Source: Pyropia yezoensis
Taxonomy: Eukaryota; Rhodophyta; Bangiophyceae; Bangiales; Bangiaceae
Reading direction: 5' to 3'
NCBI GenBank assembly: GCA_009829735.1
Contig: CM020618.1
Location: forward strand, 12,816,568 to 12,880,567
Length of the DNA: 64,000 bases
Below, in pieces: positions 1,024 to 47,751 of this stretch; positions within the stretch are counted from its first letter, which is position 1, and each line of letters opens with the position of its first letter. Under the pieces are notes generated by a model. It was not told where the DNA came from. It saw only the letters and a program-made list of their open reading frames with translations, and made no database searches. The position numbers and the translations under genes were made by a program.

Positions 1024-3193
1024 CTACAGGGTCGCCGCGTTAGTCTTCCTGTCGGTCGGCTTGTGTTCGGCAGCGCCGTCGGTGGCCTCCGGTGCCACAC
1101 CCTCACCCGCGTCGGTGGCGTCGCCGCCGTCAGAGGCGGTCAGGTCGATGTGGATAGTCGGGGACGGCTGCGGCTGCGCCGCCCTCTTGGACACCGCCTC
1201 CTTGGTGCGCTGCGCCTTGGCACCGCGTGACATATTGCGCAAGGGAGGTGTGGCCAGCGCCTGGGGGAAGACGGCTGGCCAAGGCGCCAGTCGAGGAGCT
1301 TGCAGAGGAGCGAGGCGCGCGGGTTCAGCGGGCAGTGGCAGTGGGGGGTTGACAGTCGCCTGCTCCAGCAGAGCAGCCTCCGTAGTGCCATAGGACCCGG
1401 ACAAATGCAGGCCACCGGACGCCGCGCTCGCCGCGTGGTGCGCCGTAGGTTGCGCGGGGCAATCCGCGCCTCCTGCACAACCTGCACGTCCGAGTCGGAG
1501 TCCATCATGAGACGCGTCACAGGCGTGGGGTCCTTGTCCACTGCGCGTCGGCCCGCGGTGTCGCGCGTGTCGGTGGGGGTAGAGGTGCGCGTGAGCCCCT
1601 TCATACCGCACCGAACGCGGACGCGCACAGGCGTCACGGCTGCGCTGCAGCTGCTGCTGATGTCGGTCACACCTCGGGTGCTGGTCGGTGTGCGCGCAGC
1701 ACGAATGGCCAAGCGCTTCTTGCGGTAGGGCTCACTCTCATCGTCGCTGGCCGAGTCGTCCCCGTGCTTTTCCGCCGCCTTCCCCAGTAGCACCATCGTC
1801 TGCCGCTTCTTAAAGACCGCGGTCGCCGCGCTGTCCGCCATATGAGGGCTGAAAAAAAACGCGATCTGGGCGCGCGCCGCAGCCGAGCGCGCGATACTCT
1901 CGAGAGCGTCGGCGCTCTTGGCGCTCTCCATGGCGGCGGCGCGTGCCACCGACCGCGCCTCACTGCGATCGCGCTTGGCCGCCTTGACTCCCAACGGCGC
2001 GGGTGCGTACGCGCCAGTCTTAGGAGGCGCTTTCACCATCACGTCCGAGTCTTCCGCGCCAGACTCCTCCGCGGATGCCAGAGACGGAGGCGGCGGCGGC
2101 GGCAGCGGGGTCGCGTCTGCCGCGGCTGCCCCGCTGAACTTGTCCAGGTGACGGAGCGCCTTCCAGCAGCCCACAAAGTCGCATGTCGCCTCCTTGGGCT
2201 TGCGAACGCAAGACTTACCCTTCTTCTTGTCCTTGTCGCGGTCCTCGCGAACGCCCGCGTACGCGCCCATGCCGTATATAACCGCCGTGGCGGCGCTGAT
2301 CAGGCCCTGTTCTTCGAGGTTGCCAGTCAGGTTCTGGTTGCGGACGCGGCGATAAGCGTCCTTAAACGCGTCCACACCCTGCGCAACGGTTGGCCAGCGC
2401 CCTTCCAGAGCCCGCGCCGTCCACGACACCTGGTTATCCGGCAGGTCCTTCTCGCCCACAAGGATCTTGTACGCATGATACACCTTCATCCACAAGTCCG
2501 CCTTTGTCTGGTCGGCTCCATTGCTGTTGTCCACCACCACCGCCGCGTACGCGCGAGCTAGGGCGCAGTCCTCAGCCTCAGTCCATGAGCGCCCAGAGCC
2601 CATACCTCCCGCCGGCGCCTCGTTATTCCCGTCACCCTTGCGCTTCCTGCCGTTGGCGCGATTCTTGCGCGCCAGAACGCGAGAGTAGGTCACTGCCGGG
2701 AGGAACCCGGACGAGGGTCGTTCCCCCTCCAGCGTGACGGCCCTTCGTTGCGGGGATAGCCTCTGTCCCTGCGCGTCGGGTCCTGCGCAAACCCCTGCTG
2801 CGGGGGGTCGTGCGGGTCGAACTGCCGCTCCGACGAGGGGCCCTGCGGCTGGAACTGCCGCGGTGTCGACGACGGTGGACCTTGCTGCAAATGCCACCGG
2901 CCGTTCGGCAACGGACGCCCTCGCCCGGCGAACGGCTGGCCGTCGAAACTGGTCCCACGGCCGCCAGAGTAAGGCGGCCTCGGCGTAGGTGGCCGGGGCG
3001 GCAGCGTTTGCGGGTTGTAGACTTCGTGTGGCGGTGGCGTCGACCTCCGTCCGTGGGGCTCCGAAAAGGACGAGGGCTGTTGCGGCCTCAATTGTCGCGG
3101 CGTTGCAGGCCTTTTCCGTGCTTGGTCTCGCTCCGAGTACCCTTGCCCGTCGAAGCCGCGCTGCTGCGGCGGCGGGAGACCCTGGTACTTGTG
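1024..3193 (-). CDS. Myb/SANT-like DNA-binding protein, probable Harbinger ORF (exon structure uncertain)
   Basis: The core is a trihelix/SANT-like domain on the minus strand at about 2603-2330, starting GRSWTEAEDCALARAYAAV and continuing through a second helix with QVSWTARALEGRW. It is followed by a DFVGCWKALRHLDKF block (about 2180-2135), as in plant NAM-associated or Harbinger Myb-like proteins. Downstream is an acidic/basic region and an Ala-rich helix. A different frame (2690-3193) encodes a Pro/Gly/Arg/Gln-rich disordered segment that begins just after a TAGCAG splice-acceptor-like site at 3194-3199. The last about 130 codons read more naturally in the frame ending at 1024 than in the one ending at 1140. 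I therefore infer introns or frameshifts at both ends. In this superfamily the protein binds element ends and assists nuclear import of the transposase. Confidence 0.55.
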
Positions 3194-3199
3194 CTGCTA

Positions 3200-3937
3200 G
3201 TCCCTCCCTGAAGGAGTCCCGTGGTCCAATGGTCCCTGCGCGTCCACCGGCGCCGTCAGTTGTAACCGCCCAGAGTCTTGCGCAGTAGGCAATGGGCGCG
3301 GCTGGGAGCTCCCCGCGTCGCCGCGCGACTGTCGCCCAAACTAGAACACCAGCAGGCGCGGCCCACTCCAAAGCAGCCTCACCAGACGCCATACTTGCTC
3401 ACGGCCCGACACAGGGCCGGTCGCCCGCCGGCGCGCCTCGTACAACAGCCCAGGGGGGGCCGCCCAGGGGCAAGGACAGGTTGCAGGGCAAAGGGGGTGG
3501 TTTTCGTCAGCGTAGCGGGAGAGCCTGCACATGTGACACAGGCGCTCACCTCGGGGTCGATGGGGCGGCCAATCCTCGTCGCCGCCACCAGCAGACGCCA
3601 TTATTCGTTGCTTATGTAGCTGCGGACGACGGTCTGTCGCGTTCCAGAAGCGACACGGCCAAGCGGGGCGCCGGGCCGCGCAGCTGCACGAGACGCACCT
3701 CCCGAGACACCACCACAGCCAGAGAGAGGTGGAGTGCCCAGGAGGGCACCAAGCCGCCCCCGCAATGACAGCGTTGGCGGGGCAGCTACCCACCAAGGTA
3801 GCACTTGAGGGGGGCGGCTCAGGAAAAGGCTGGAATGGGAGAGGCAGTCCTGGGGTAGGAGCGCTGCTGCGATATGGGACAGGCGGTTGTCGGGGAAGGT
3901 GTGATGATTCTTGCGGCAGTTGGCTCGTCGTAGGCGC
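3200..3937. other. Unassigned sequence left of the LTR array
   Basis: Open frames exist on both strands, including a minus-strand frame with a C-x2-C and C-x3-C cysteine pattern near 3500. None has a recognisable domain or a convincing start. It may be upstream sequence of the SANT-like gene. The stretch ends at the TCCAG duplication (3938-3942) of the LTR array. Confidence 0.4.
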
Positions 3938-3942
3938 TCCAG

Positions 3943-4307
3943 TGTAGCACAATAGGAATCCGTCGCACGTCCACTCTCAGGGAACACTCACCAAGGGGGA
4001 TCGGCACCAACGTCACCGGGAGGCCAAGGTTGCTGTCCTTGGAGCGCAAGCCACGGGACCAAGATGGGAGCCCAAATGGGAGGGGTTTGTTGTTCTACCT
4101 TGGCCGGCGGTGGATTCGCCACCGGCCCCCTCGTTATAAACCCTCGGAGACACTACTAACTACCCTCTCCACCCCAAGATGCAAGTCCCTCTGGTCATAC
4201 GTAACTTATAGATACCGTGACCAGTACGGACTCTCAAATTGAAAGTTAAGGATTAGAAGTAGCCCCCCTAATATTAGGGTCACAATACGGACAACCATAT
4301 TGCTACA
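3943..4307 (-). repeat. LTR 1 (3' LTR of unit I)
   Basis: 365 bp with perfect terminal inverted repeat TGTAGCA/TGCTACA. It is preceded by TCCAG, matching the five bases after LTR 3. It has a TATA-like box on each strand: TTATAAA at 4134-4140 on the plus strand and CTATAAG at 4205-4211 on the minus strand. It differs from LTR 3 by very few bases, for example one substitution in the AACGTCACC/AACATCACC stretch, so the insertion is recent. Confidence 0.92.
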
Positions 4308-4319
4308 TATCCCCCCCTT
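4308..4319 (-). promoter_or_regulatory. Polypurine tract of unit I
   Basis: On the minus strand the bases abutting the 3' LTR read AAGGGGGGGATA, a typical plus-strand-DNA primer site for reverse transcription. The copy next to LTR 2 (18965-18976) has a shorter G run. Confidence 0.7.
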
Positions 4320-4893
4320 AGATTCGGCCCGTCCTCGGGTCGAGTTGCATTCGGGTTACCGAATGTAAGTGGGTCGCGTGACTGTTTACCCGTCGGGTGG
4401 GGCTTTGCGCCCCGTCGCGACAGACACCCCTTTTCGAGGTTGTCCGAGGGGGGTGCCCCCCTTTGTGTGGTACACACACGATCCGTTTTCCGGACCGTTA
4501 ATTTCCCGATGCGGGTTTTTGTTCACGACCCCCCTTTCCGAGGGGTGGTGCAAGCGGATCCGCCACCAGGTGCCTGGTGGTAGGGGGGCCCCTCTCGTGT
4601 GGACGATTGAGTGGGGGGCGGGGGCTGCGCGCGTTGCGTGGGGGCGGTTGGGGGTGACCCCCCTTTGCTTACCCCGTGTGTGGGGGTGGCCCCGTCCCGC
4701 CCAGGTGCCTGGGTGGAGCGCGTTCGTAGCCCCGTGGGGCGTGGGTCGACCCGCGTGTTTGTGGCGCTTCTCGTAGCCGTTTGTGGTCATAAGCGCGGGT
4801 GCCCGCGCTTTCCTGGCTCGTCCCGGTTATCCCACCGTACCGGGTCGTAGCCGTCGACGGCTTGTGGGCGCGGGGGACTCCGCACCCGTTATC
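4308..4893 (+). other. Leader between LTR 1 and the antisense-side gene
   Basis: About 590 bases lie between the LTR and the first ATG of the plus-strand gene. They are rich in short G and C blocks and have no supported coding frame. If the plus-strand TATA-like box in LTR 1 is used, this would be the 5' leader of the antisense-side transcript. Confidence 0.35.
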
Positions 4894-7341
4894 ATGTCCT
4901 ATCCCCAGGTGCTTGGAGAGGAGGAAGACCTCCTGATCGGGGAGGAGATGGAGGACGACGCGCCTGTCGGTCCCGACGCCGCGCGTTACGGGGTGAGCTC
5001 GTCTGACGACGACGGGCCTGCGGTGTCCGTCCGTCTGTCGGCCGGTGGACTGTCGTCCGTGTGCAGCGGCACGACGGTGCCGTCGGCCGGCGGTCAACCC
5101 GGCGGTCAACCGCGCGTGGCGGCTTCTACCCCCTCTCTGCCGGCTGCCCGGATGGAGCCTGGTGCCGGTGCCGGCTCACCGCAGCTACCTCAAGATGGTC
5201 CGCCCTGCGGCGGAGGTGGGGACCCGCAGCCGACTCCGGCTGGTCAAGGTGGTCCGGGTGTCCGGGCGGTGACTCCTCGAGGCGGTCCCGACGTTGACGC
5301 GGGTGGTGGTGGCGGTGCGACACCCGGTGCGGCGGGTCAAGACGGTGCGGGTGTCCGCACGGCCGGGGCTCCGGCTCCGGAGGCTGTCCAAGTGCCTTCC
5401 CCTTCCGAGGCGGGGGCTACGCCGACGGGTGGTGCCGGCGCCGGTACCGTACCTGCGGTGCCGCGGGTGTCGAGCGGTCAAGACGCTCCTTCTCCCATGG
5501 CGGTTGACACCGGGAGTTACTCCGGGCGGGCGCCCGCCCTTCTTCTTCCTCCTCGGCCTCGTCAATCTCCGACGTCGGCCCCTCTGCCGGTGGTGCGTCC
5601 CCCGGCGCCCCCGATTCTTCCTGGTCCTGCCCGGGTTGCCCCGTTGGGTGGCGGCGTCGCCGTGGCGGCGGGTCAACCCGCCATGTCGGTGTCCGACTTG
5701 GTGGCTCGGGTTCGAGGCCTCACGGTGCAAGAGTCGATGGAGTCCGATGGGCGTATGCGGGTGGACTTCCACCTGGTGCATCCCCGTGGAGAGTCCTCCC
5801 GGCGCGTCAAGGTGGACCCGAGCTGGGAGCGGGAGTTGGTGCGGCTGGTCAACCAGCCGAACGCGGTCCGGGTGGAACACCATTGGATCCTGAGTCAGCC
5901 GGACGACCGGCATGCGCAGCTCTGGCGCACCCGGGTGGGACGGGGTGAGGTCTACCTCGACCCCAACTTCGGGGTCTGCGACCTGATTGCCCCCGCGTTG
6001 CCGCGGGAGATTGACTACCCGGCTAGTGCTCGGGGGATTGCGGCGGCGGCGGAGCCGGTTGCGTTTGGGGAGACGGTGAGCCGTACCGGTCGGTATCCCG
6101 ACTTTGACTACTACCCGGGGGTACCCCCGTATCTGTCGTTGACGGCTCCCTACCCGCCCATGGCGGGGTTGAAGTCGGCGTCGAGTTGGCGACGTAACCA
6201 TGGTGTCATGGCGGATGCGTTCCGCACGGATATAACGTGTGCGTTGCAGACCGGCAACGGTCGTGCTCCGGTATACACTCCCGTGCGCCCGCCGCTATGG
6301 CAGGAGGGGTGGGAACCCGCCCCTGCTTTCCGGTTTGACACCGGCTCCTGCCTTCGCTACTTCGGGAGTGTGTTGGCCTCGCGACCGGTCCACCCGTTGC
6401 AGGGTACCTTCACCCTTGAGGTTACCCTCGGGCAGGCCTCATCCTTCTTGCTGTCCGTCCGCCGGCAGGGTCGTCTGTTTCATCTTCCGACGGGTGTCCG
6501 TCGGCACATCGCGCAGTTGGGCGTGGATCTGATAGCTGCTAAGACCGGGTTGGCCCGGGAGTTCGAAGCCCTGCTGGCTGTTCACGATGCCGTGAACTGG
6601 GCTGGGGTGTTGGCCCTTCCCCCGTACCGGGACCCGCAGGCTGGGGCTTCCCCCTTGCCTCGTCACTCGTTGCGTGTCCGGCGTACTCAGCCGGGTGAGC
6701 CTAGTTGCCATGGGTGGGCGTCCACCGAGGCCGTTCCTGACCTGGGTATTCCCATGGTTATCCATGACCCTCTTCAGGTCCTTGCTCCGTGGTTCGGTAA
6801 CCCGATGCCGGCGGCGGTTGGCCGTCGTCCCCGAGAGTGGGGCTCTGTGGGTGGGGAGCGTGAGGTGTCCCGTCGTCGGGCGGAGTACCGCCGTGGTTAC
6901 GGTGGAGCCCCTTCGGTAGGGTCCTACCGGGCCTCGTATCAGGTGCCACCGGCTCCGGTGGTAGCCGTGTCGGCTCCTGTGGCTCCTCTGGCTGCGCCAG
7001 TGTCACCTCCCGCCCCTGTCCTACATGACGGGGGTCCCCGTCTCTGGTATGAGGGCGTTGACGCCCTTGTTACCCGCGCAATGCGTGGGGGTCTCTCTGT
7101 TAGCTGGGGGGATATCCCCCCAGGTGCTGCGCTGGTTGGGTCAGCGCGTTGCTTCGGTGGCGTGCTGGACCGCCTCCAGAAAGCTCTGGAGGACGTGGAG
7201 GCTGGCCGCAGCACCCTCGTCCAGCTATGCACCGAGGTAACTCGGGTGGTCGACCGTCGTGACGTTGCCGACCGGTGGAGCACGGAGGTCTACGCGCTTA
7301 CGCGTGAGTGGCCTCCCTCGGGCAGTGGGTCTACCCACTGA
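4894..7341 (+). CDS. Antisense-side accessory protein of the LTR element (unknown family)
   Basis: An 815-residue frame on the strand opposite gag-pol; I chose the first ATG (MSYPQVLGEEED), though the frame stays open upstream to 4783 with a GTG. Residues about 20-300 are acidic then Pro/Gly/Ala-rich and probably disordered. Residues about 300-620 look globular (VDFHLVHPRG, WERELVRLVNQP, FGSV near 490, then LFHLPTGVRRHIAQL near 530). A Pro/Val-rich linker precedes a helical C-terminus of about 90 residues (DRLQKALEDVEAG). There is no zinc knuckle, protease or clear membrane segment, so it is neither gag nor a typical envelope protein. It converges on pol, stops 502 bases from pol's end, and has a relative in the LTR element at 42.7-47.7 kb. 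Function unknown. Confidence 0.75.
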   Translation: MSYPQVLGEEEDLLIGEEMEDDAPVGPDAARYGVSSSDDDGPAVSVRLSAGGLSSVCSGTTVPSAGGQPGGQPRVAASTPSLPAARMEPGAGAGSPQLPQDGPPCGGGGDPQPTPAGQGGPGVRAVTPRGGPDVDAGGGGGATPGAAGQDGAGVRTAGAPAPEAVQVPSPSEAGATPTGGAGAGTVPAVPRVSSGQDAPSPMAVDTGSYSGRAPALLLPPRPRQSPTSAPLPVVRPPAPPILPGPARVAPLGGGVAVAAGQPAMSVSDLVARVRGLTVQESMESDGRMRVDFHLVHPRGESSRRVKVDPSWERELVRLVNQPNAVRVEHHWILSQPDDRHAQLWRTRVGRGEVYLDPNFGVCDLIAPALPREIDYPASARGIAAAAEPVAFGETVSRTGRYPDFDYYPGVPPYLSLTAPYPPMAGLKSASSWRRNHGVMADAFRTDITCALQTGNGRAPVYTPVRPPLWQEGWEPAPAFRFDTGSCLRYFGSVLASRPVHPLQGTFTLEVTLGQASSFLLSVRRQGRLFHLPTGVRRHIAQLGVDLIAAKTGLAREFEALLAVHDAVNWAGVLALPPYRDPQAGASPLPRHSLRVRRTQPGEPSCHGWASTEAVPDLGIPMVIHDPLQVLAPWFGNPMPAAVGRRPREWGSVGGEREVSRRRAEYRRGYGGAPSVGSYRASYQVPPAPVVAVSAPVAPLAAPVSPPAPVLHDGGPRLWYEGVDALVTRAMRGGLSVSWGDIPPGAALVGSARCFGGVLDRLQKALEDVEAGRSTLVQLCTEVTRVVDRRDVADRWSTEVYALTREWPPSGSGSTH

Positions 7342-7843
7342 GGAGTGCTATTGTTTGTGCGGGAGAGGGCCCCGGCAACCCTTATGGTAGCCGGGTAGTA
7401 GTGAGTATAAACTCATCCCCTTTGGGGGCGTTGCTTGCCTCTGTTTGCTGCCCTGGGGAGTACCCCTTCTGGCTCAGTGGTGCCTTGCCTCCCGTCCAAC
7501 TTCTTCCGGTAGGTTCATGCTTGGGGAGGTCATCCTCCCTCACTTGGTGTCTTGGCTTGGGGAGGTCATCCTCCCGTGTAAGCTCCCTAGTTACTTCGAT
7601 ATTATCGGAGTTAGCCTTTACCTTTAAGTTAACTTATAAAGGTTCAGGTTTTACTTAGTTACCTAAGCTTAGCTCTACTTAGTTACTTAAGCTTAGCTCT
7701 ACTTAGTTACCTAAGCTTGGTTCGACTTAGAAACCTAAGTCCGATTTGACTTAGAAACCTAAGTCTGCCGTAACCATGTCACACCCTACTTAGTAGGTAT
7801 AAGCCTCACCCCCCAACAGCCGAAGTCGGTGTCGGTTGGGTTG
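7342..7843. repeat. Convergent intergenic region with palindromic tandem repeat
   Basis: This lies between the stops of the plus-strand gene and pol. It has two copies of GGGGAGGTCATCCTCCC (near 7535 and 7557), each itself partly self-complementary. It also has a tandem array of about 24-bp units at 7653-7764 built on ACTTAGTTACCTAAG and ACTTAGAAACCTAAGT, both near-palindromes. Unit I has five unit copies and unit III (22275-22362) has four. A role in ending both convergent transcripts is plausible but inferred. Confidence 0.7.
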
Positions 7844-10800
7844 TTACAGTAGGCGTCGTCGCCTCATGTAAGGCATGAGTAGTTGGCGGGGTATATTCGC
7901 CGCCTGTTCCCAGGTGGGTGAGTCGTATCCGACCCACATAACCTTGACGTACCAGGGTCCTGGTATGTCCGGGTCGGTGTGTCCGACCACGCTCTCTACT
8001 TGGTATGGAATCCCATCCGGTCCCACCGGGTCATCCGACCGGTGGGTTGTAAGAGCTTCATGTAGCAACCCAGCCGGTACCGGCTGAGGCTGTTCCGGCT
8101 TCGGAGCCGGTGTGACATCATTCATACTGATGCGTTGGATCTCCGTATCGGAGTGTAAGATAACAGAGTGGTCATCTCTGTGGAGGATCTGGTACGGTCC
8201 CTTGACCGGTTGCATAAGCTTGTTCCCTCGGAACTTCTGGTGTCTGATATAGACCCAGTCACCTGTTACCAGGGTTGCGTTGCGCACCCGTAGTCGGGCG
8301 TCGAAGTTCTTCTTATACCGAAGTTGTGTTCTGTCAAGGGCACCCTTGAGCTTAGGAATCATCCACGATAGCTTGGCCAACCAAGCTAGGTGGATGCGTT
8401 CGGCGGGTCGGCCCTTCGGTGTATCATACCGAGTGCACCTGCCGGGTGGCAGCGTCAAGTTACCGACGCCTAGTGGCATGACCCACTCCAGCGGAGCAAT
8501 GTTTGTGCTCCGATGTGGCCTGGCATTGTATGCCAGGGTGAGTACGGACAGAAGCCTGTCCCAAGTGTTCGTGTGCTCGGCCACGTAGCACTGTAGCATC
8601 TTGACGATGGTGCGGTTGAACCGCTCCACCTGCCCGTTGGACTGCGGGTGGTAGTCGGATGCCCGACGTGGTTCAATACCGAACATGCCCAGGACCTTAG
8701 TGCAGAATGCCGACGTAAGGTTTGCTCCGTTATCGGAGAGGAGTTGCTTCATGACTCCGTATGCACTGATCCAGTGGTCAACCACTGCGTTCATGATCGT
8801 GTATGCCGTATCATTCGGGATGGCTGCCGCTCTTGACAGCTTAGTGAAGCGGTCAGACATGACCAGGATGTACCTGTTCCCTTCTTCCGTTATCGGAAGT
8901 GGCCCGAGTATGTCGATAGCGACTTGCTCGTTGGGCCCATCAGGTGGGAATAGCTTCATGGCAGACGCCCGCCTATGTAGACTCATGCGGTTACGTGCAC
9001 AGGGGTGGCATCCCCTTACGTGGTCGACCACGTCGACGGCCATTGCTGGCCAGTAGAAGAACCTTCGCATTGCTGCGAACATACGTGAACCCCCCGGGTG
9101 TCCGGCTGTAGGGTTCTCATGTTCTCGTTTCATGACGGCTTGCCGTAAGGACACGGGAACCACGACTTGATGTCGTCCATCGGCGGGTGCCCGCCGGTAT
9201 ATGAGTCCGTCTTCGTTCTCGGAGAAGATGCCGGCCGTACCGGCCAGGAGGTTAGCACGATGACGTCTACAGTCATCGTCGTTGGCCTGTGCCTCGCGGA
9301 AGTCCGCGAGGGTCAATGGGCACGCAAGGTGTGCCATGGTATGGTCAGCCATACCCTGGGTAGCATTACCCACCATGCACACCGGTACTACCGGGATGTC
9401 CTCGTCCACCGGGCGGGTATCCCCGCTCGGGGTGTCGAGTCGAGACAACGCGTCTCCGAGGTGGTGGGTTGACCCAGCCTTATACACGGTGCGGTAGTCG
9501 TGCTCGGCCATCTTCAGCCTCCATCGGGCTAGCCTTCCATGGCTATCGGAATCCTTGTCACCAAGGTTGAGGAGCCATCGTAGGGGTTCGTGGTCGGACC
9601 TCACGATGAACCTGGAGCCCTCCAGGTATGGACGGAGCAGTTGCACTGCCCATATAACTCCGAGGCATTCACGCTCGGTGGCACTATAGTTCCGCTCAGC
9701 CGGGTTGAGTGTCCGGCTGAAGTATCCTACCGGACGTAGGTCCGGGATAACGTTATCGGTACCGATCAACGTCTCCCCCTGTAGCAGGGTGCATCCCACT
9801 TGTGTATCACACGCATCGACATCGATGACGAAGGTACCCCGTCTATGCGGTAACGCAAGGACGGGTGGGGCTAGTAGGGCTCGCTTCAGCGACTCGAATG
9901 CCTCCTCTTCGCTAGGCGAAGGGGGTTGGAGTACCTTGGGTAAGGTACTGCTCGTAAGAACCGTTAACGGTTTAGCTATCCGAGCGAAGTCCTTGACGAA
10001 CCGTCGGTATACATTGCACATTCCCAGGAAGCTCTTGAGCTGCGTCTGGGTGTTAGGGAACCGGGCATCCCGGAGTGCCCGGGTATTGGCTTCGAGTACC
10101 CCTAGTTTACCAGGGGTTATCTGGTGGCCCAGATACTCGACCGTCTGTTGGAAGAAGGCGCACTTCTTCAGACGCAGGGTTACCCCGGCGTTCCTCAAGA
10201 GGGTGAGTACCTCGTCAACATGTTGTACATGGTCATCCATGTTACGCGAGAAGACGATGACGTCATCGAGGTACACTAGGCAGTTACGCCACTTCACCCC
10301 CGACAGTATGATGTCGATAGCCCGCTGGAATGTAGCGGGGGCGTTGGACAATCCGAAGGGCATCCTTAGGAACTCGTACACTCCACTGTGACAGACGAAT
10401 GCCGTCTTGGGGATATCCTCGTCCGCCACCGGGATCTGCCAGTATCCGGCATTGCAGTCGATGGTGGTAAACACCGTAGCCTCCCCCAGGGAGTCGATGC
10501 ATTCATCCATCCTTGGTAAAGGGTATGAGTCCTTCTTGGTAACCAAGTTGAGGCGTCGATAATCGATGCAAAACCGAGGGGTTTGATCCTTCTTCGGCAC
10601 AATAACGACTGGGGCACCCCATTCCGACATCGAAGGTCGGATCACCTTAGCTTCACTCATCCTCTTCACTTCTCCATCAACGATCTCTCGTTGCATAGGT
10701 CCCGCTCGGTGCGGTTGTGAGCGGGCGGGTCGTGCGCCTGGTACCAGGTCTATACGATGTTGGGTTGCCCCAATGGTCCCCAAGGCCCCGCCTGTCCACA

Positions 10801-12010
10801 TGACGTCATGCTTTCTTAGCATCCGTCGTACCCCTTCGGCTACCGAAGGGGGAAGGTGGTCGAGGTCAGCCTCGGCCAGTGCCTTCAAGGCCTCTTGGTC
10901 CTTTGGCGGCAGGTCCGCCGGAGCCGCCGATGGGTTAGGCTTCCCGTCATCGGGTTGCTGTCGCTCGGTGGTCTCGGCGACCGCCAGTACTTCAAGTGGT
11001 TCCACTTGACCTTCCTTATCAGGGGTAAGGATATCTCCTTCGTAGAGTTCGGCAATCCCGAGGATAGTTCCCTTCGGGAGGGTGACTGCCTTACGGCGAT
11101 AGTTCGCCATCACTAGGAGGGACGACCCTCCTGCTGGGAGGTCTATGAGACCGTTGGCCATGGTCAACCCATGGCGCTTGTACGTCCGTAGGTTGGACTG
11201 GACTCTGCAGATGCCTGCGAGGTCGCAGTTAACCGGGAGGACTGTCTCTGACAACGGCTCAAAGCGAGTTCGCTTGGCCAACCGAAGTGTCTTCGGCTCG
11301 ACGCTTGCGTACACCTCAGCCACGTTAACGTGGCTTCCTTGTAGCGTCAGGTCCCTGACGATAGCCGTGTGTCCTCGCTTCGTCCCGTCGGCTTCTTGAA
11401 GCTCGACGGTCCTCCGGCCTGGCCGGATTGCATCAACGTGAACGTTGATGAAGGTGCACCCCAGTATGCAGGGCACCGATAGCGTTTCACATACCAGGAA
11501 GTCAACTTCCGTGGTGAGATCCCCGATGGTAACCTGCAGCGACATCGCTGCGGTCGTACGAATGAGTCGACCATTCGCGTCCTTGATGGTGGGTCCCCGA
11601 GTCACTCTGACTCGTGGAAGCCACTTGTCCGGGAGGGTATCCTTCCGGATAAGGTTGGGTCCAGCCCCTGTGTCCAGTACAGGGTAGTACGATCGTGTCG
11701 ACTGGGGGTCAACCCCCAGTGTGGGTGATACCTTGAAGTTCTCCAAGGTAAACAACACATGTCCTACACCGATATCCGGTGTAGCTCGGGCATCCTGAAC
11801 AGGGCCCTCGTCTGGTTCAACGTGACGGGGCTTCCCGTCCTCTCCTCCCAACCTTGGAGGTTGGTCATCAATCCCCTGACGCCGTGTCGTCGGGGCCGGA
11901 AGGTGTACCCGGGGGTTGATGCGGCGTCGGCTCAACCGCGCTCTCCGTGGGGCTTTCCCCGCGGTACTCCGGGGTGGCTTGCTTGGGTGACCCCAGCGCC
12001 CCCCGGTCAT
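7844..12010 (-). CDS. pol: Ty3/gypsy Pol polyprotein, unit I (PR-RT-RNaseH-INT-chromodomain)
   Basis: A 1388-residue intact frame. Retropepsin active site is DTGA near residue 113. Reverse transcriptase shows FCIDYRRLN and the YLDD catalytic box near 578. RNase H begins with DVDACD near 730. The integrase zinc finger (H-x-H-C-x2-C, ending GCHPCARN) is near 985-1010, and the integrase core follows with VAIDILG (first Asp, about 1029), LSDNGANLTS (second Asp) and QSNGQVERFN (Glu). The last about 55 residues form a chromodomain (YQVESVVG, WYVKVMWVGYDSPTWEQ), which targets integration to particular chromatin in this clade. The ATG lies 8 bases after the gag stop and in another frame, so expression needs reinitiation or frameshifting. 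The unit III copy appears identical in protein sequence. Confidence 0.95.
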   Translation of the reverse strand: MTGGRWGHPSKPPRSTAGKAPRRARLSRRRINPRVHLPAPTTRRQGIDDQPPRLGGEDGKPRHVEPDEGPVQDARATPDIGVGHVLFTLENFKVSPTLGVDPQSTRSYYPVLDTGAGPNLIRKDTLPDKWLPRVRVTRGPTIKDANGRLIRTTAAMSLQVTIGDLTTEVDFLVCETLSVPCILGCTFINVHVDAIRPGRRTVELQEADGTKRGHTAIVRDLTLQGSHVNVAEVYASVEPKTLRLAKRTRFEPLSETVLPVNCDLAGICRVQSNLRTYKRHGLTMANGLIDLPAGGSSLLVMANYRRKAVTLPKGTILGIAELYEGDILTPDKEGQVEPLEVLAVAETTERQQPDDGKPNPSAAPADLPPKDQEALKALAEADLDHLPPSVAEGVRRMLRKHDVMWTGGALGTIGATQHRIDLVPGARPARSQPHRAGPMQREIVDGEVKRMSEAKVIRPSMSEWGAPVVIVPKKDQTPRFCIDYRRLNLVTKKDSYPLPRMDECIDSLGEATVFTTIDCNAGYWQIPVADEDIPKTAFVCHSGVYEFLRMPFGLSNAPATFQRAIDIILSGVKWRNCLVYLDDVIVFSRNMDDHVQHVDEVLTLLRNAGVTLRLKKCAFFQQTVEYLGHQITPGKLGVLEANTRALRDARFPNTQTQLKSFLGMCNVYRRFVKDFARIAKPLTVLTSSTLPKVLQPPSPSEEEAFESLKRALLAPPVLALPHRRGTFVIDVDACDTQVGCTLLQGETLIGTDNVIPDLRPVGYFSRTLNPAERNYSATERECLGVIWAVQLLRPYLEGSRFIVRSDHEPLRWLLNLGDKDSDSHGRLARWRLKMAEHDYRTVYKAGSTHHLGDALSRLDTPSGDTRPVDEDIPVVPVCMVGNATQGMADHTMAHLACPLTLADFREAQANDDDCRRHRANLLAGTAGIFSENEDGLIYRRAPADGRHQVVVPVSLRQAVMKREHENPTAGHPGGSRMFAAMRRFFYWPAMAVDVVDHVRGCHPCARNRMSLHRRASAMKLFPPDGPNEQVAIDILGPLPITEEGNRYILVMSDRFTKLSRAAAIPNDTAYTIMNAVVDHWISAYGVMKQLLSDNGANLTSAFCTKVLGMFGIEPRRASDYHPQSNGQVERFNRTIVKMLQCYVAEHTNTWDRLLSVLTLAYNARPHRSTNIAPLEWVMPLGVGNLTLPPGRCTRYDTPKGRPAERIHLAWLAKLSWMIPKLKGALDRTQLRYKKNFDARLRVRNATLVTGDWVYIRHQKFRGNKLMQPVKGPYQILHRDDHSVILHSDTEIQRISMNDVTPAPKPEQPQPVPAGLLHEALTTHRSDDPVGPDGIPYQVESVVGHTDPDIPGPWYVKVMWVGYDSPTWEQAANIPRQLLMPYMRRRRLL

Positions 12011-12018
12011 CCTTCCTC

Positions 12019-14193
12019 TTACTCGTTTCCCGCCCTTGGTAGGGTGCTGTCCGCCGGGACATCCGGCTGAGGAGGTGCCCCCTCGACGGCCAGTACTCCA
12101 CCTGGAGCTGGCTGCCTACCCGGTGCGGGTCCGGGTGCTCGGGCGGGATACCCCCCGGTGGATGCCTTGCGTTGCGCCGCTGCCCGCCGAGACTCCTCGG
12201 GGATGAGTGGGCAGGAAGACACCCAGTGCTGGGGATCCCCACACAACATACACCCGGACGTGCCGGTCCCCCCTTGAGGTCGCATCGGGGTATTCCCGTA
12301 GCTACGGTTGCCTCCCTCGGGCGCCCGAGTGCCTGCTCCCTGGTAGGCCTTGGGTCCTTGTGTCAACCGGAACATGGACTCCCCCAACCGGTTGGGTCGG
12401 CCCGCAATCTGCGGAGGTGCCTCCGTGCGCACCGCCCATGTTGGCAAGGGTTGGTGAGGGTTACCCGTCACCGGGGAGTACCCCGTAGTCCGAACATACG
12501 GGACGCGCCGTCCCGTTCCTTCGTTGACCTGGAACTGGGTTCCAGCCGGGGCGATGTACGCTACCGTACCGTGTTCATCAATCACCGGCGTCGCCGGTAG
12601 CAACAGGTGGCCCTGTTGGTCGACTAGAGGGTCATCTTCACCAATAGGGGTATGTTCGGTCGCCACCAGTACTGGTGCGTCCTTACGTTCCACCTTCTCT
12701 TGCCTCGGTACCGGGGTAAGACTGGGCTTGCCTCCCTCACCCTTGGGCTTCGGGGCCAAGGCACACTCCGGGTGTAGAACCCGGTAGGCGTCCCCTAGGG
12801 ACTTGCACATATGCATCAGTCGACTGAAGTTCGTCCGTGCCGTGTTGGCGCCCCGTGCGGATATCCGCACGTAGTTGGGTACTCCTGCGAACAGGATGGC
12901 CCGTAGCTCCCCTTCTCCGAGGAGCTTCCCCAGCTCGTAGTCGAGCTCTTGGATCCGGCGTCCAAACATCTCCTCATCCTCCCATGACTGGGCGGTGGCA
13001 GTGCGAAGGGCCCGATAGTGGTCCTCGCACTTGTCCTCACTGAGGTAGCTGCTCAGCAGCTCCTTCAATATCCCACGGTAATCCATGGGGTGGCCGCGAC
13101 CCTCATTCCCGGCATCGGGGATGCCTGGCGAAGAATGCCTCGCACCCGTTCATCAACAAAGAACGGAAGGATCTCCAGGGCCAGCCCCTCGTTAACGAGC
13201 GCATTGTCTGCGGCTGCCTTGAAGCTAGTCAAGAAGCCGATGACTGCCAACGGGCGTCCGTTCGGCCCCCCGAACATAGGGACTCCCTTCATAAGGGTCT
13301 GCGGATCGCCCGATGCGACGTATTACGCATCGATTCCGATACGGTGGTAGAGCGGTCCTCCAAACGATAACGTTCCGGAGCAAGAACCGACCGGAAGACC
13401 TCGTTGACGATCTCCGTGTCAGCGTCCTGGATATCCAGTCGCTTAGCCAGTTGATGAGCGAACTCATCGGACTCCATCCGCTTCAGTAGGCTCGCAGTTA
13501 CCTGCGCGGTCATAGCTTCCACCACTGAAGATGGTACTTCAGGCGTCGGCACCTCGGGAACCCGAGTTGCCTGGCCTCCTTCGTCGTGGGGGTACTGCGA
13601 GAGGGTACCCCCTCCCCCAATAACCGACTCTCCCCCGGCGTAAGTATCCGCCGGGTCGTGTCCGCGGAGTCCGCTTCGGGTGCTCCGAGCGTATCGCTCC
13701 GTGTGACTCCGTTCCAACTCTGCCGACGAGTCGGACCCATATCCCATTGTGTCCGGGGGTTGTCCAGGAGTAGCAACCCCGGGATTGACCCTGGTGGACT
13801 CCGAAAGTAGACCGGCCGGTTCGAACCGTACCGGTGTGGGAGGAACACGACGGGGTCCCGTCGTGTGCCGTGTTGACATCAACACTGCCATTGCGTCCTC
13901 CGTCCGATCTTGACGGGCGTCGAGCCCGGAAAACCGGGCCTCGATGCGGGCCAATGATGCCATCAGGGAATCCCCTGGTGAAGGAGGCGGCGGAGTGAGG
14001 TCGGTCGACGACAGTTGAGGCGGGCCCCCGCCTCCTGCCGTCCGAGCCGTGCCAAACGTCGATCCGGCACCGGAAAGCATTAGCGTCTCAATGTTATCGA
14101 TCGGGTTCCCGATCCCGGTTCCCGTAGTCACCTCCGGAGTCGGCGTCGACGCCGATCCGCCATCTTGAACGTTCCCGTCTCTTGGGTAGACAT
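12019..14193 (-). pseudogene. gag: Gag, unit I, broken in three places
   Basis: The reading starts MSTQETG and encodes a disordered N-terminus, a capsid-like helical region (FLTSFKAAADNALVNEG, RTATAQSWEDEEMFGRR) and a CCHC zinc knuckle C-x2-C-x4-H-x4-C (CMLCGDPQHWVSSC) near the C-terminus, so identity as gag is secure. Three breaks are visible. One C is missing in the run near 14172, compared with units II and III. A 7-base deletion near 13289-13305 puts the capsid region out of frame. One G is missing in the run near 13085 compared with unit III. The stop is TAA (12021-12019), just upstream of the pol ATG. Some single-base differences may be assembly errors. Confidence 0.85.
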
Positions 14194-14389
14194 AGTCACA
14201 ATCAGTCCACCGACGCAACGATCACCACGAATAAGAGAGCGAGGGGGTAGATTGGGGAGAGTAACAGTATGTCACAGTCACAGGTAAAAGCTCAACACAA
14301 TCGATCAGGTCGCAACACCACGAGTACAAGAAAAGGACCGGATCCCTATCCGTGTGCCAGGGCCGAAGACGGCGTCACCACAAGGGTGA

Positions 14390-14889
14390 NNNNNNNNNNN
14401 NNNNNNNNNNNNNNNNNNNNNNNNNNNNNNNNNNNNNNNNNNNNNNNNNNNNNNNNNNNNNNNNNNNNNNNNNNNNNNNNNNNNNNNNNNNNNNNNNNNN
14501 NNNNNNNNNNNNNNNNNNNNNNNNNNNNNNNNNNNNNNNNNNNNNNNNNNNNNNNNNNNNNNNNNNNNNNNNNNNNNNNNNNNNNNNNNNNNNNNNNNNN
14601 NNNNNNNNNNNNNNNNNNNNNNNNNNNNNNNNNNNNNNNNNNNNNNNNNNNNNNNNNNNNNNNNNNNNNNNNNNNNNNNNNNNNNNNNNNNNNNNNNNNN
14701 NNNNNNNNNNNNNNNNNNNNNNNNNNNNNNNNNNNNNNNNNNNNNNNNNNNNNNNNNNNNNNNNNNNNNNNNNNNNNNNNNNNNNNNNNNNNNNNNNNNN
14801 NNNNNNNNNNNNNNNNNNNNNNNNNNNNNNNNNNNNNNNNNNNNNNNNNNNNNNNNNNNNNNNNNNNNNNNNNNNNNNNNNNNNNNNNN
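14390..14889. other. Assembly gap (500 N)
   Basis: Exactly 500 N, probably a placeholder of arbitrary size. The left edge stops a few bases before the expected primer-binding site and 5' LTR of unit I. The right edge resumes in the middle of the next unit's pol (equivalent to about 10714 in unit I). If unit II were complete, an LTR, the antisense-side gene and about two thirds of pol would be missing here. Confidence 0.98.
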
Positions 14890-16199
14890 GTTGTGAGCGG
14901 GCGGGTCGTGCGCCTGGTACCAGGTCTATACGATGTTGGGTTGCCCCAATGGTCCCCAAGGCCCCGCCTGTCCACATAACGTCATGCTTTCTTAGCATCC
15001 GTCGTACCCCTTCGGCTACCGAAGGGGGAAAATGGTCGAGGTCAGCCTCGGCCAGTGCCTTCAAGGCCTCTTGGTCCTTTGGCGGCAGGTCCGCCGGCGC
15101 CGCCGATGGGTTAGGCTTCCCGTCATCGGGTTGCTGTCGCTCGGTGGTCTCGGCGACCGCCAGTACTTCAAGTGGTTCCACTTGACCTTCCTTATCAGGG
15201 GTAAGGATATCTCCTTCGTAGAGTTCGGCAATCCCGAGGATAGTTCCCTTCGGGAGGGTGACTGCCTTACGGCGGTAGTTCGCCATCACTAGGAGGGACG
15301 ACCCTCCTGCTGGGAGGTCTATGAGACCGTTGGCCATGGTCAACCCATGGCGCTTGTACGTCCGTAGGTTGGACGGGACTCTGCAGATGCCTGCGAGGTC
15401 GCAGTTAACCGGGAGGACTGTCTCTGACAACGGCTCAAAGCGAGTTCGCTCGGCCAACCGAAGTGTCTTCGGCTCGACGCTTGCGTACACCTCAGCCACG
15501 TTAACGTGGCTTCCTTGTAGCGTCAGGTCCCTGACGATAGCCGTGTGTCCTCGCTTCGTCCCGTCGGCTTCTTGAAGCTCGACGGTCCTCCGGCCTGGCC
15601 GGATTGCATCAACGTGAACGTTGATGAAGGTGCACCCCAGTATGCAGGGCACCGATAGCGTTTCACATACCAGGAAGTCAACTTCCGTGGTGAGATCCCC
15701 GATGGTAACCTGCAGCGACATCGCTGCGGTCGTACGAATGAGTCGACCATTCGCGTCCTTGATGGTGGGTCCCCGAGTCACTCTGACTCGTGGAAGCCAC
15801 TTGTCCGGGAGGGTATCCTTCCGGATAAGGTTGGGTCCAGCCCCTGTGTCCAGTACAGGGTAGTACGATCGTGTCGACTGGGGGTCAACCCCCAGTGTGG
15901 CTGATACCTTGAAGTTCTCCAAGGTAAACAACACATGTCCTACACCGATATCCGGTGTAGCTCGGGCATCCTGAACAGGGCCCTTGTCTGGTTCAACGTG
16001 ACGGGGCTTCCCGTCCTCTCCTCCCAACCTTGGAGGTTGGTCATCAATCCCCTGACGCCGTGTCGTCGAGGCCGGAAGGTGTACCCGGGGGTTGATGCGG
16101 CGTCGGCTCAACCGCGCTCTCCGTGGGGCTTTCCCCGTGGGGCTTTCCCCGCGTACTCCGGGGTGGCTTGCTTGGGTGACCCCAGCGCCCCCCGGTCAT
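14890..16199 (-). pseudogene. pol: Pol fragment of unit II, cut by the gap
   Basis: Encodes only the N-terminal part of the same Pol, including the DTGA retropepsin region and the linker before reverse transcriptase; the rest falls in the gap. The expected start (ATG at 16199) is out of frame with the long frame, owing to small indels near 16110-16150 where a GTGGGGCTTTCCCC block is duplicated relative to units I and III. Several substitutions separate it from them, so it is a distinct copy. Confidence 0.85.
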
Positions 16200-16207
16200 C
16201 CTTCCTC

Positions 16208-18379
16208 TTACTCGTTTCCCGCCCTTGGTAGGGTGCTGTCCGCCGGGACATCCGGCTGAGGAGGTGCCCCTCGACGGCCAGTACTCCACCTGGAGCTGGC
16301 TGCCTACCCGGTGCGGGGTCCGGGTGCTCGGGCGGGATACCCCCCCGGTGGATGCTTGCGTTGCGCCGCTGCCCGCCGAGACTCCTCGGGATGAGTGGGC
16401 AGGAAGACACCCAGTGCTGGGGATCCCCACACAACATACATCCGGACGTGCCGGTCCCCCTTGAGGTCGCATCGGGGTAGCCCCGTAGCTACGGTTGCCT
16501 CCCTCGGGCGCCCGAGTGCCTGCTCCCTGGTAGGCCTTGGGTCCTTGGGTCAACCGGAACATGGACTCCCCCAACCGGTTGGGTCGGCCCGCAATCTGCG
16601 GGGGGCCTCCGTGCGCACCGCCCATGTTGGCAAGGGTTGGTGAGGGTTACCCGTCACCGGGGAGTACCCCGTAGTCCGCACATACGGGACGCGCCGTCCC
16701 GTTCCTTCGTTGACCTGGAACTGGGTTCCAGCCGGGGCGATGTACGCTACCGTACCATGTCATCAATCACCGGCGTCGCCGGTAGCAACAGGTGGCCCTG
16801 TTGGTCGACTAGAGGGTCACCCTCCCCAATAGGGGTATGTTCGGTCGCCACCAGTACTGGTACGGGCCTTACGTTCCACCTTCTCTTGCCTCGGTACCGG
16901 GGTAAGACTGGGCTTGCCTCCCTCACCCTTGGGCTTCGGGGCCAAGGCACACTCCGGGTGTAGAACCCGGTAGGCGTCCCCTAGGGACTTGCACATATGC
17001 ATCAGTCGACTGAAGTTCGTCGTGCCGTGTTGGCGCCCCGTGCGGATATCCGCACGTAGTTGGGTACTCCTGCGAACAGGATGGCCCGTAGCTCCCCTTC
17101 TCCGAGGAGCTTCCCCAGCTCGTAGTCGAGCTCTTGGATCCGGCGTCCAAACATCTCCTCATCCTCCCAGGACTGGGCGGTGGCAGTGCGAAGGGCCCGA
17201 TAGTGGTCCTCGCACTTGTCCTCACTGAGGTAGCTGCTCAGCAGCTCCTTCAATATCCCACGGTAATCCATGGGGTGGCCGCGACCCTCATTCCCGGCAT
17301 CGGGGATGCCTGGCGAAGAATGCCTCGCACCCGTTCATCAACAAAGAACGGGAGGATCTCCAGGGCCAGCCCCTCGTTAACGAGCGCCTTGTCTGCGGCT
17401 GCCTTGAAGCTAGTCAAGAAGCCGATGACTGCCAACGGGCGTCCGTTCGGCCCCCCGAACATAGGGACTCCCTTCATAAGGGTCTGCATAGAGCGGATCG
17501 CCGATGCGACGTATTACGCATCGATTCCGATACGGTGGTAGAGCGGTCCTCCAAACGATAACGTTCCGGAGTAAGAACCGACCGGAAGACCTCGTTGACG
17601 ATCTCCGTGTCAGCGTCCTGGATATCCAGTCGCTTAGCCAGTTGATGAGCGAAACTCATCGGACTCCATCCGCTTCAGTAGGCTCGCAGTTACCTGCGCG
17701 TCATAGCTTCCACCATGAAGATGGTACTTCAGGCGTCGGCACCTCGGAACCCGAGTTGCCTGGCCTCCTTCGTCGTGGGGTACTGCGAGAGGGTACCTCC
17801 TCCCCCAATAACCGACTCTCCCCCGGCGTACGTATCCGCCGGGTCGTGTCCGCGGAGTCCGCTTCGGGTGCTCCGAGCGTATCGCTCCGTGTGACTCCGT
17901 TCCAACTCTGCCGACGAGTCGGACCCATACCCCATTGTGTCCGGGGTTGTCCAGGAGTAGCAACACCGGGGTTGACCCTGGTGGACTCCGAAAGTAGTCC
18001 GGCCGGTTCGAACCGTACCGGTGTGGGAGGAACACGACGGGGTCCCGTCGTGTGCCGTGTTGACATCACACTGCCATTGCGTCCTCCGTCCGATCTTGAC
18101 GGGCGTCGAGCCCGGAAAACCGGGGCCTCGATGCGGGCCAATGATGCCATCAGGGAATCCCCTGGTGAAGGAGGCGGCGGAGTGAGGTCGGTCGACGACA
18201 GTTGAGGCGGGCCCCCGCCTCCTGCCGTCCGAGCCGTGCCAAACGTCGATCCGGCACCGGAAAGCATTGGCGTCTCAATGTTATCGATCGGGTTCCCGAT
18301 CCGGTTCCCGTAGTCACCTCCGGGTCGGCGTCGACGCCGATCCGTCATCTTGAACGTTCCCCGTCTCTTGGGTAGACAT
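16208..18379 (-). pseudogene. gag: Gag of unit II with many single-base indels
   Basis: The same gag is recognisable end to end: N-terminal STRHTTGPRRVPPTPVRFEP, capsid-like region, then the CCHC knuckle and TAA at 16210-16208. It is split over at least six frames by single-base losses, nearly all in homopolymers. Unlike units I and III it retains the seven bases that keep the N-terminal and capsid regions potentially continuous (near 17484-17500). Confidence 0.8.
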
Positions 18380-18580
18380 AGTCACAATCAGTCAACCGAC
18401 GAACGACCACCACGAAAAGAGAGCGAGGGGGTAGATTGGGAGAGTAACAGTAGGTCACAGTCACAGGTAAAAGCTCAACACAATCGATCAGGTCGCAACA
18501 CCACGAGTACAAGAAAAGGACCGGATCCCTATCCGTGTGCCAGGGCCGAAGACGGCGTCACCACAAGGGTGACGAAACCC

Positions 18581-18600: not shown

Positions 18601-18964
18601 TGAGCACAATAGGAATCCGTCGCGCGTCCCATCTCAGGGAACACTCACCAAGGGGGATCGGCACCAACGTCACCGGGAGGCCAAGGTTGCTGTCCTTGGA
18701 GCGCAAGCCACGGGACACAAGATGGGAGCCCAAATGGGAGGGGTTTGTTGTTCTACCTTGGCCGGCGGTGGATTCGCCACCGGCCCCCTCGTTATAAACC
18801 CTCGGAGACACTACTAACTACCCTCCACCCCAAGATGCAAGTCCCCTCTGGTCATACGTAACTTATAGATACCGTGACCAGTACGGACTCTCAAATTGAA
18901 AGTTAAGGGTTAGAAAGTAGCCCCCCTAATATTGGGTCACAATACGGACAACCATATTGCTACA
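18601..18964 (-). repeat. LTR 2 (internal LTR of the array)
   Basis: 364 bp. It starts TGAGCA (one base lost from TGTAGCA) and ends TGCTACA. It carries more small differences than LTR 1 and LTR 3 have between them, mainly in homopolymers. It serves as 5' LTR for unit II and 3' LTR for unit III. Confidence 0.9.
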
Positions 18965-19527
18965 TATCCCCCTTAGATTCGGCCCGTCCTCGGTCGAGTT
19001 GCATTCGGTACCGAATGTAAGTGGGTCGCGTGACCGTTTACCCGTCGGGTGGGGCTTTGCGCCCCGTCGCGACAGACACCCTTTTCGAGTTGTCTCAGGG
19101 GGGTGCCCCCTTTGCGGGCACACCACGATCCGTTTCCGGACCGTTAAATTCCCGATGCGGGTTTCTGTTCACGCCCCCCTTTCCGAGGGGTGGTGCAAGC
19201 GGATCCGCCACCAGGTGCCTGGTGGTAGGGGGGCCCTCGTGTGGACGATTGAGAGGGGGGCGGGGCTGCCCGCGTTGCGTGGGGGCGGTTGGGGGTGACC
19301 CCCTTGCTTACCCCGTGTGTGGTGGGCCCCGTCCCGCCCAGGTGCCTGGGTGGAGCGCGGTCGTAGCCCCGTGGGGCGCGGGTCGACCCGCGTGCCTGCG
19401 GCGCTTCTCGTGGCCGTTTGTGGTCATAAGCGCGGGTGTCCGCGCTTCCCTGGCTCGTCCCGGTTATCCCACCGTACCGGGTAGCCGTCGACGGCTTGTG
19501 GGCGCGGGGGACTCCGCACCCGTTATC

Positions 19528-21963: not shown

Positions 21964-22274
21964 GGAGTGCTATTGTTTGTGCGGGAGAGGGCCCCGGCAA
22001 CCCTTATGGTAGCCGGGTAGTAGTGAGTATAAACTCATCCCCCTGGGGGCGTTGCTTGCCTCTGTTTGCTGCCCTGGGGAGTACCCCTTCTGGCTCAGTG
22101 GTGCCTTGCCTCCCGTCCAACTTCTTCCGGTTGGTTCATGCTTGGGGAGGTCATCCTCCCTCACTTTGGTGTCTTGGCTTGGGGAGGTCATCCTCCCGTG
22201 TAAGCTCCCTAGTTACTTCGATATTATCGGAGTTAGCCTTTACCTTTAAGTTAACTTATAAGGTTCAGGTTTTT

Positions 22275-28793: not shown

Positions 28794-28998
28794 AGTCACA
28801 ATCAGTCCACCGACGCAACGATCACCACGAATAAGAGAGCGAGGGGGTAGATTGGGGAGAGTAACAGTATGTCACAGTCACAGGTAAAAGCTCAACACAA
28901 TCGATCAGGTCGCAACACCACGAGTACAAGAAAAGGACCGGATCCCTATCCGTGTGCCAGGGCCGAAGACGGCGTCACCACAAGGGTGACGGAAACCC

Positions 28999-29017
28999 GT
29001 CCCCTGCTGCTCCACCA
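28999..29017 (-). promoter_or_regulatory. Primer-binding site of unit III
   Basis: Plus-strand GTCCCCTGCTGCTCCACCA, separated from LTR 3 by one base. It marks the 5' end of the element on the minus strand and is complementary to a CCA-ended tRNA. Folding the implied tRNA end gives acceptor strand CTGCTCC with discriminator A; I cannot assign the amino acid. Confidence 0.85.
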
Positions 29018-29018
29018 A

Positions 29019-29383
29019 TGTAGCACAATAGGAATCCGTCGCACGTCCACTCTCAGGGAACACTCACCAAGGGGGATCGGCACCAACATCACCGGGAGGC
29101 CAAGGTTGCTGTCCTTGGAGCGCAAGCCACGGGACCAAGATGGGAGCCCAAATGGGAGGGGTTTGTTGTTCTACCTTGGCCGGCGGTGGATTCGCCACCG
29201 GCCCCCTCGTTATAAACCCTCGGAGACACTACTAACTACCCTCTCCACCCCAAGATGCAAGTCCCTCTGGTCATACGTAACTTATAGATACCGTGACCAG
29301 TACGGACTCTCAAATTGAAAGTTAAGGATTAGAAGTAGCCCCCCTAATATTAGGGTCACAATACGGACAACCATATTGCTACA
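29019..29383 (-). repeat. LTR 3 (5' LTR of unit III)
   Basis: 365 bp, TGTAGCA to TGCTACA, followed by the TCCAG duplication at 29384-29388. As the 5' LTR of the rightmost unit it should supply the gag-pol promoter; a minus-strand CTATAAG box is present at the position equivalent to that in LTR 1. Confidence 0.92.
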
Positions 29384-29388
29384 TCCAG

Positions 29389-31488: not shown

Positions 31489-31611
31489 AGATACTGTCAG
31501 CCTGGCATGTCCTATTGATCCCCCGATATGGGCACCAGCAGCCTACATTCTCAATGCGCAGCCTACATTCCCAATCTCACTTGAGAATGTAGGCTGCCAT
31601 TACCGCCACTC
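31489..31611. repeat. Dispersed 123-bp repeat with hairpin, copy 1
   Basis: Nearly identical to 41365-41487. It contains GCAGCCTACATTCTCAA (31538-31554) and its exact reverse complement TTGAGAATGTAGGCTGC (31581-31597), with a third direct copy of GCAGCCTACATTC between them. Confidence 0.8.
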
Positions 31612-41364: not shown

Positions 41365-41487
41365 AGATACTGTCAGCCTGGCATGTCCTATTCATCCCCC
41401 GATATGGGTACCAGCAGCCTACATTCTCAATGCGCAGCCTACATTCCCAATCTCAGTTGAGAATGCAGCCTGCCATTACCGCCACTC
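41365..41487. repeat. Dispersed 123-bp repeat, copy 2
   Basis: Matches 31489-31611 with a handful of substitutions. One arm of the hairpin is altered (GAATGCAGCC instead of GAATGTAGGC), so copy 1 is the better folded. Flanks are unrelated, so the repeat edges are the ends of a mobile or duplicated unit. Confidence 0.8.
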
Positions 41488-47275: not shown

Positions 47276-47277
47276 AA

Positions 47278-47746: not shown

Positions 47747-47751
47747 GTCGG

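Follow-up and report, generated by a model that had tools for sequence, protein, structure and literature searches.

A candidate accessory gene opposite gag-pol in two LTR retrotransposon families of the red alga Pyropia yezoensis

Open reading frames on the strand opposite gag-pol, between pol and the 3' long terminal repeat (LTR), are denoted aORF-3R and are known from plant Ty3 elements, e.g. maize Grande (gene23), rice RIRE2, and Phaseolus PvRetro13, and also from the fungal element Boty (PMC7264820). The function of the plant aORF-3R is reported as not known (PMC7264820, PMC11963269). GENE23 of Grande is described as nuclear and transcribed from its own promoter (PMC7264820). In Retand, described as a non-chromovirus lineage, the antisense protein of most clusters carries a TRP28 domain (PF04195), and about half of the clusters have tandem repeats there (PMC11963269). 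Accessory proteins are also reported from DNA transposons. The VANC anti-silencing proteins of VANDAL elements are element-encoded, consist of conserved and variable parts, and diverge faster than the mobility protein of the same element, which also harbors noncoding tandem repeats (PMC5735166, PMC10398659); the VANC targets form tandem repeats (PMC5735166). A DNA transposon of Ectocarpus encodes an accessory gene opposite its transposase (PMC12477816). None of the terms sought appears in a survey of plant elements, as covered by a term search (PMC6317226), and in the open-licence literature searched, no description of a gene of this kind from red algae was found. The genome of Pyropia yezoensis consists of 48% repeats, with LTR retrotransposons as the majority (PMC7423979).

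The genes described here belong to two element families of this alga, denoted A and B, and were found in a window of 64,000 nucleotides, i.e. the whole stretch of DNA that was analysed. Both occupy the space between pol and the 3' LTR on the strand opposite gag-pol (in B, opposite a pol remnant), and their coding frames are conserved and open in most of the best-scoring copies. They thus resemble Grande gene23, RIRE2, PvRetro13, and Boty in place, orientation, presence in most copies, and a conservation suggesting a role in the cycle of the element. They differ from the plant aORF-3R in their red-algal host, in showing no Pfam family above the cut-off, and in being shared by families whose pol proteins are only 41% identical, with selection measured. 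As in Retand, tandem repeats accompany the gene in family A; unlike Retand, PF04195 has no match in this genome at E values up to 10, and pol ends in a weak chromo-like domain. VANC shares with the genes described here the conserved and variable parts and the faster divergence, and with family A the noncoding tandem repeats, but it belongs to a different element class, and no match to DUF1985 or DUF287 was obtained in the Pfam scans; the Ectocarpus gene likewise resides in another class, a DNA transposon. The known architectural slot is filled here, in a red alga, by proteins of a family for which no domain was recognised and which is common to two deeply separated element families, with homologs in a second Pyropia species.

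The features of the family A element in the window are as follows.

3943–4307 (about): 3' LTR; the outer target duplication TCCAG is the same as at 29384–29388
4894–7341, plus strand: antisense accessory gene of 815 codons, between pol and the 3' LTR and convergent with pol
7650–7763: 24-bp tandem palindromic repeat CTTAG...CTAAG, between two convergent stop codons; its copy number varies among element copies
7844–12010, minus strand: pol of 1388 codons (protease, reverse transcriptase (RT), RNase H, integrase, weak chromo domain)
12019–14218, minus strand: gag-region frames, adjoining the assembly gap
14390–14889: assembly gap of 500 N; 10714–14389 is repeated across it as 14890–18572
18603–18965 (limits approximate): middle LTR of an LTR-internal-LTR-internal-LTR arrangement
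19550–22000 (limits approximate), plus strand: second copy of the antisense gene, split into several frames
22442–26608, minus strand: second intact pol
26617–28799, minus strand: gag region of the second copy, two frames, with a very weak zinc-knuckle match (E 0.036)
29019–29383: 5' LTR of the tandem arrangement, with the primer binding site directly inside

The order protease-RT-RNase H-integrase, the LTRs (~365 bp, starting with TG and finishing with CA), and the target duplication are all present, as in Ty3-type LTR retrotransposons. The arrangement reads LTR, internal region, LTR, internal region with the 500-base gap, LTR, and the 5-bp duplication TCCAG is found at both of its outer ends. 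Since the sequence beside the gap recurs across it, the whole is likely to be a single insertion that contains either a tandem copy or an assembly join, and the gap itself probably marks a place where the assembly was joined within the repeat. The element had been called a chromovirus, a label that receives weak support: the chromo domain (PF00385) is matched at the end of pol in both A (E 0.012, 15.9 bits) and B (E 0.00037, 20.8 bits), in either case below the Pfam cut-off of 25.1.

The frame of 815 codons reported in the original prediction is found as described, opposite gag-pol and between pol and the 3' LTR. Its product shows an acidic N-terminal tail, a Gly/Pro-rich linker, a conserved core (about residues 300–600), a Pro/Ala-rich linker, and a C-terminal part. 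A similar start and acidic tail recur in the related proteins P0006 and P0007, at the position of the start Met. With a core of about 200–300 residues thus defined, the protein is open to studies of binding, localisation, and structure. The frame is not confined to this copy: of the 55 copies of family A that were scored, 51 carry it without an internal stop, although these are the best of 36,337 first-look candidates, so that the true intact share is lower or uncertain. In one of the two family A copies of the window (18.6–29.4 kb), the antisense gene is broken into several frames.

Selection on the gene was assessed from pairs of copies. Between subfamilies, dN/dS is not near 1 but lies at 0.30–0.41. 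The window gene gives 0.298, 0.316, and 0.303 against three copies of subfamily A2 (L021, L022, and L024; L023 was left out, its gene needing two frames), with 269–272 changes at third codon positions versus 136–148 and 103–105 at positions 1 and 2. In the same comparison, the remaining five frames show ratios of 0.44–1.85 and contain 8–26 stop codons. Other copies yield 0.337 (L047), 0.314 (L048), 0.349 (L066), and 0.407 (L049) against A, and 0.349 for L047 against L048; the family B gene gives 0.33 against an old, decayed relative (L061). Among 19 young A copies compared with L001, 113 nonsynonymous and 210 synonymous differences were counted, a ratio of 0.21, although these copies are kin and picked by score, so that the differences are not independent events. 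A corresponding count for young B copies (536 differences over 19 copies) was discarded because the sequences were compared without gaps and copies with indels had probably raised it. Within A2, the ratio rises to 0.53–0.74, as for decaying copies. Pol is more constrained (0.10–0.115 over its last 350–363 codons), and the antisense gene evolves faster than pol both by this measure and by A–B identity, which is about 24% for the antisense protein. Judged by these ratios, the family A antisense gene is kept under purifying selection, and there is hardly any doubt that the frame is a selected protein gene. The selected function that the original prediction had derived from conservation across diverged elements is borne out by dN/dS together with the homology of the two proteins described below.

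The gene does not share one history along its length. The part concerned is the following.

5540–7410 (about): exchanged block, within which A is 68–87% identical to A2 and 69–93% (mostly at least 78%) identical to A3, A4, and L049

In an identity profile of A versus A2 (L022, 120-base steps), the upstream region and the N-terminal part of the gene are 81–100% identical, mostly above 90%, and identity returns to 85–98% past the block, which ends just after the stop codon. On the immediate flanks of the block, A is only 47–74% identical to A3, A4, and L049 and closer to A2, whereas in pol it reaches 91–96% identity with the former where covered. Synonymous divergence changes along with identity: dS between A and A2 amounts to 0.25–0.26 in the first 300 codons and to 0.71–0.73 in the core. 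Because the identity pattern reverses and dS shifts in step, it follows that lineages have swapped the conserved half of the gene as one block. A known route to such exchange in retroelements, template switching when two RNAs are packaged together, would produce the pattern seen here.

A second element of the window carries a related gene, with the following features.

42726–47749: family B element, with LTRs at 42726–43197 and 47278–47749 and the target duplication GTCGG; its primer binding sequence is identical to that of family A
43537–45480, plus strand: antisense gene, homolog of 4894–7341, with an Arg/Ser-rich C-terminal tail
45592–46587, minus strand: pol remnant, consisting of the N-terminal end of RT fused near 46399 with the C-terminal end of integrase

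The similarity of the two antisense proteins, noticed before as a set of short motifs, reflects real homology. Aligned as profiles (hhalign), A and B score 56.0 over 203 columns (A residues 362–573, B residues 96–320), compared with 25.5 for the best of 100 column shuffles and 24.9 for a reversed profile. The single sequences alone give 51.6 bits over 230 columns in BLASTP, where 500 shuffles do not exceed 27.3 bits, and the Pyropia vietnamensis protein P0003 matches B with 41.6 bits. On these alignments, the antisense proteins of the two families are homologous. The order of the shared motifs is confirmed, including RRQGRLFHLP in one protein and QRRGMLWHLP in the other and the E-x-LL/ML-x2-H segment. 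The predicted spacing of 40–41 residues holds from FGSV to HLP; counted up to the R with which the motif begins, it is 34–35. Protein searches, each scoring 8000 candidates, revealed relatives of A in P. vietnamensis (P0003, 48% identity; P0004, 45%; P0006, 47%); further relatives without functional name are 48–95% identical to A, and one such relative is 97% identical to B. A search for the shared motif returned 20 matches, four of A type, eleven of B type, and five unrelated, and the reversed-pattern control gave 0 in both. Since these 20 comprise nothing else, no third family was found among them by motif.

The family B LTRs are 98.5% identical and are bordered by the 5-bp duplications GTCGG. 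The expectation of a second element with a gene in the same place and orientation holds insofar as a homologous antisense gene is present, but the window copy is interrupted by an in-frame premature stop at 44404–44406. In many other B copies, the frame is open over 724 codons, and among the best-scoring candidates at least 718 codons are open in 115 of 123 scored copies. The pol remnant lacks the RT core, RNase H, and the integrase core. The junction is spanned by 55 of 121 scored matches to the remnant. Of the 66 others, 37 belong to frames that are all exactly 1380 codons long, read as full-length pol in the one case examined (L067); the autonomous B pol can be aligned along the A pol. In lists of best-scoring candidates, where a missing entry is uninformative, an antisense gene accompanies the 1380-codon frame at the expected distance in 23 of 37 cases, and all 23 are open over 723–731 codons. 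Twelve of the 55 deleted copies have a listed antisense gene, open in eleven, the exception being the window copy. The open antisense frames of deleted copies were considered as proof of selection and set aside: they are weak evidence because the useless pol remnant is itself stop-free in 46 of 55 copies.

Domain searches did not assign the proteins to a described family. No Pfam family above the cut-off was obtained by hmmscan for A, L027, L047, and P0003, and the antisense proteins have no sequence match in the PDB. Matches to PF19720 (E 0.089) and to a pilin chain in the PDB (E 1.8) were taken as chance. The TRP28 domain, with 0 matches genome-wide, was also not found by hmmscan, in searches run without a plant positive control. 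The plant mobile domain gave no match, a weak negative since the controls were likewise silent; the negative result for DUF1985 and DUF287 comes from the Pfam scans of the same four proteins, in which the HMMER filters drop most weak matches. Scans of viral and prokaryotic contigs with two short peptide patterns each showed no relatives. Profiles of the antisense proteins show no similarity to either the Gag or the Pol frames of family A, and descent from these was rejected for that reason. Stretches were judged by the hydropathy threshold of a usual membrane helix, and no membrane-like stretch is found: the highest 19-residue hydropathy is 1.37 in A and 1.23 in B. An Env-like accessory ORF was rejected on this absence of a transmembrane segment and on the antisense orientation. 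Basic stretches occur in both proteins and are stronger in B.

Several explanations of the frame have to be weighed. The region of the gene is GC-rich (61–67% in 2-kb steps) and poor in stop codons, and it contains further long frames that overlap, so a frame open by chance deserves consideration; yet none of 1000 dinucleotide shuffles of 4309–7843 reaches the 854 codons of the stop-to-stop frame (highest 576, median 221), and with selection and cross-family homology added, the probability of a chance frame is negligible. The functional product might instead be the antisense RNA, acting as double-stranded RNA or by transcriptional interference with gag-pol, with the frame being secondary. The convergent arrangement would suit such a role, a possibility raised for plant elements (PMC7264820), but a dN/dS of about 0.3–0.4, the excess of third-position changes in the frame, and a protein conserved in another species speak for the coding capacity and make this very unlikely; an RNA role may exist alongside the protein. 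LTR elements are also known to capture genes (PMC7264820), and the frame could be a host gene carried along as a passenger. Its relatives among the 8000 candidates scored in each protein search bear no functional name, the hit lists from this genome are filled by near-identical element copies, and the gene occurs in two families with distantly related pol. These two families, the second Pyropia species, the purifying selection, and the block recombination argue for a gene useful to the element, and capture of a passenger is very unlikely.

A protein working in the particle is harder to dismiss. Expressed from the opposite strand and joining the virus-like particle or the pre-integration complex, such an accessory could serve RNA packaging, nuclear entry, or particle movement; in its favour are the C-terminal tail of B, rich in Arg and Ser, the Arg-rich stretch of A, and conservation together with the element. 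Against it, neither profile resembles the Gag or Pol frames of family A, and the lack of a membrane-like stretch shows that the protein is not Env-like, which leaves a particle role rather unlikely. The reading favoured here, tentatively and with less than even confidence, is a nuclear regulatory or anti-silencing protein, because membrane-like segments are absent, basic stretches are present, and GENE23 offers a parallel. Such a nuclear accessory would be made from its own antisense transcript and could act on the DNA or chromatin of the element, thereby sustaining transcription or countering silencing, comparable to VANC in VANDAL transposons and to what is suggested for plant antisense ORFs such as GENE23. 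Evolution faster than that of pol, the block exchange, and the noncoding repeats beside the family A gene are in keeping with this reading, whereas the lack of a Pfam match above the cut-off and of a PDB match counts against it. The conserved core would be the working domain, and the low-complexity tails would represent interaction or nuclear-targeting regions.

A more specific version of the anti-silencing reading is conceivable but speculative, and it is doubtful that it holds as a whole. The gene would encode a modular, sequence-specific anti-silencing protein of red-algal LTR elements, the target-recognising half of which is swapped between lineages by recombination, with RT-less non-autonomous derivatives still spreading the gene. 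Its origin would be independent of VANC, and if true, LTR elements would possess a counter-silencing system of their own. The tandem repeats bear on the parallel between the favoured reading and VANC. Half-sites of the form CTTAG...CTAAG number 12 in the 502 bases between the stop codons, versus one in the 2448 bases of the antisense gene, and the array may serve to terminate transcription in both directions or to provide binding sites. Family A pairs an A3-like core with A2-like repeats, so that core and array are of different descent and do not simply co-vary, and in family B an array of this kind is absent between the two genes. Both points weaken the parallel with VANC. In L048–L050, two related repeat units are found.

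The second LTR element of the window (family B, 42726-47749) is non-autonomous. Its pol deletion is common to 55 of the 121 scored genome candidates, i.e. the best-scoring ones, from which it appears that the deleted form was spread by autonomous family B elements. The primer binding sequence of this element (47258-47277, minus strand) is identical to that of the Ty3-type family A (29000-29018, minus strand), despite pol proteins that are just 41% identical.

In family A, the antisense gene is separated from the convergent pol by an AT-rich, 24 bp tandem palindromic repeat (CTTAG...CTAAG, 7650-7763), whose copy number differs from one element copy to another and which possibly serves as a bidirectional terminator or as a binding array. 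Since the sequences flanking a run of 500 N (14390-14889) are near-identical (10714-14389 and 14890-18572, 97.8%), this run probably represents an assembly join within the repeated element.

Further mobile-element traces and genes comprise:

49-579, +, Plant_tran transposase fragment (PF04827, E 3.6e-12)
1143-3392, -, large frame beside it, weak NAM-associated match
37450-38001, +, transposase start (HTH_Tnp_Tc3_2, E 2.6e-11)
48881-51469, +, ankyrin-repeat protein, split over two frames
59040-60344, +, bestrophin-like channel (PF25539), probable host gene
60669-61685, -, SelR methionine sulfoxide reductase (PF01641), probable host gene
62229-63011, +, HORMA-domain protein (PF02301), probable host gene

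The first two, at the window edge, appear to be a PIF/Harbinger-type element pair, and the third is of Tc1/mariner type. The ankyrin-repeat frames may form one gene with an intron or with a break. A dispersed 123-bp repeat occurs at 31489-31611 and 41365-41487 (96% identical).
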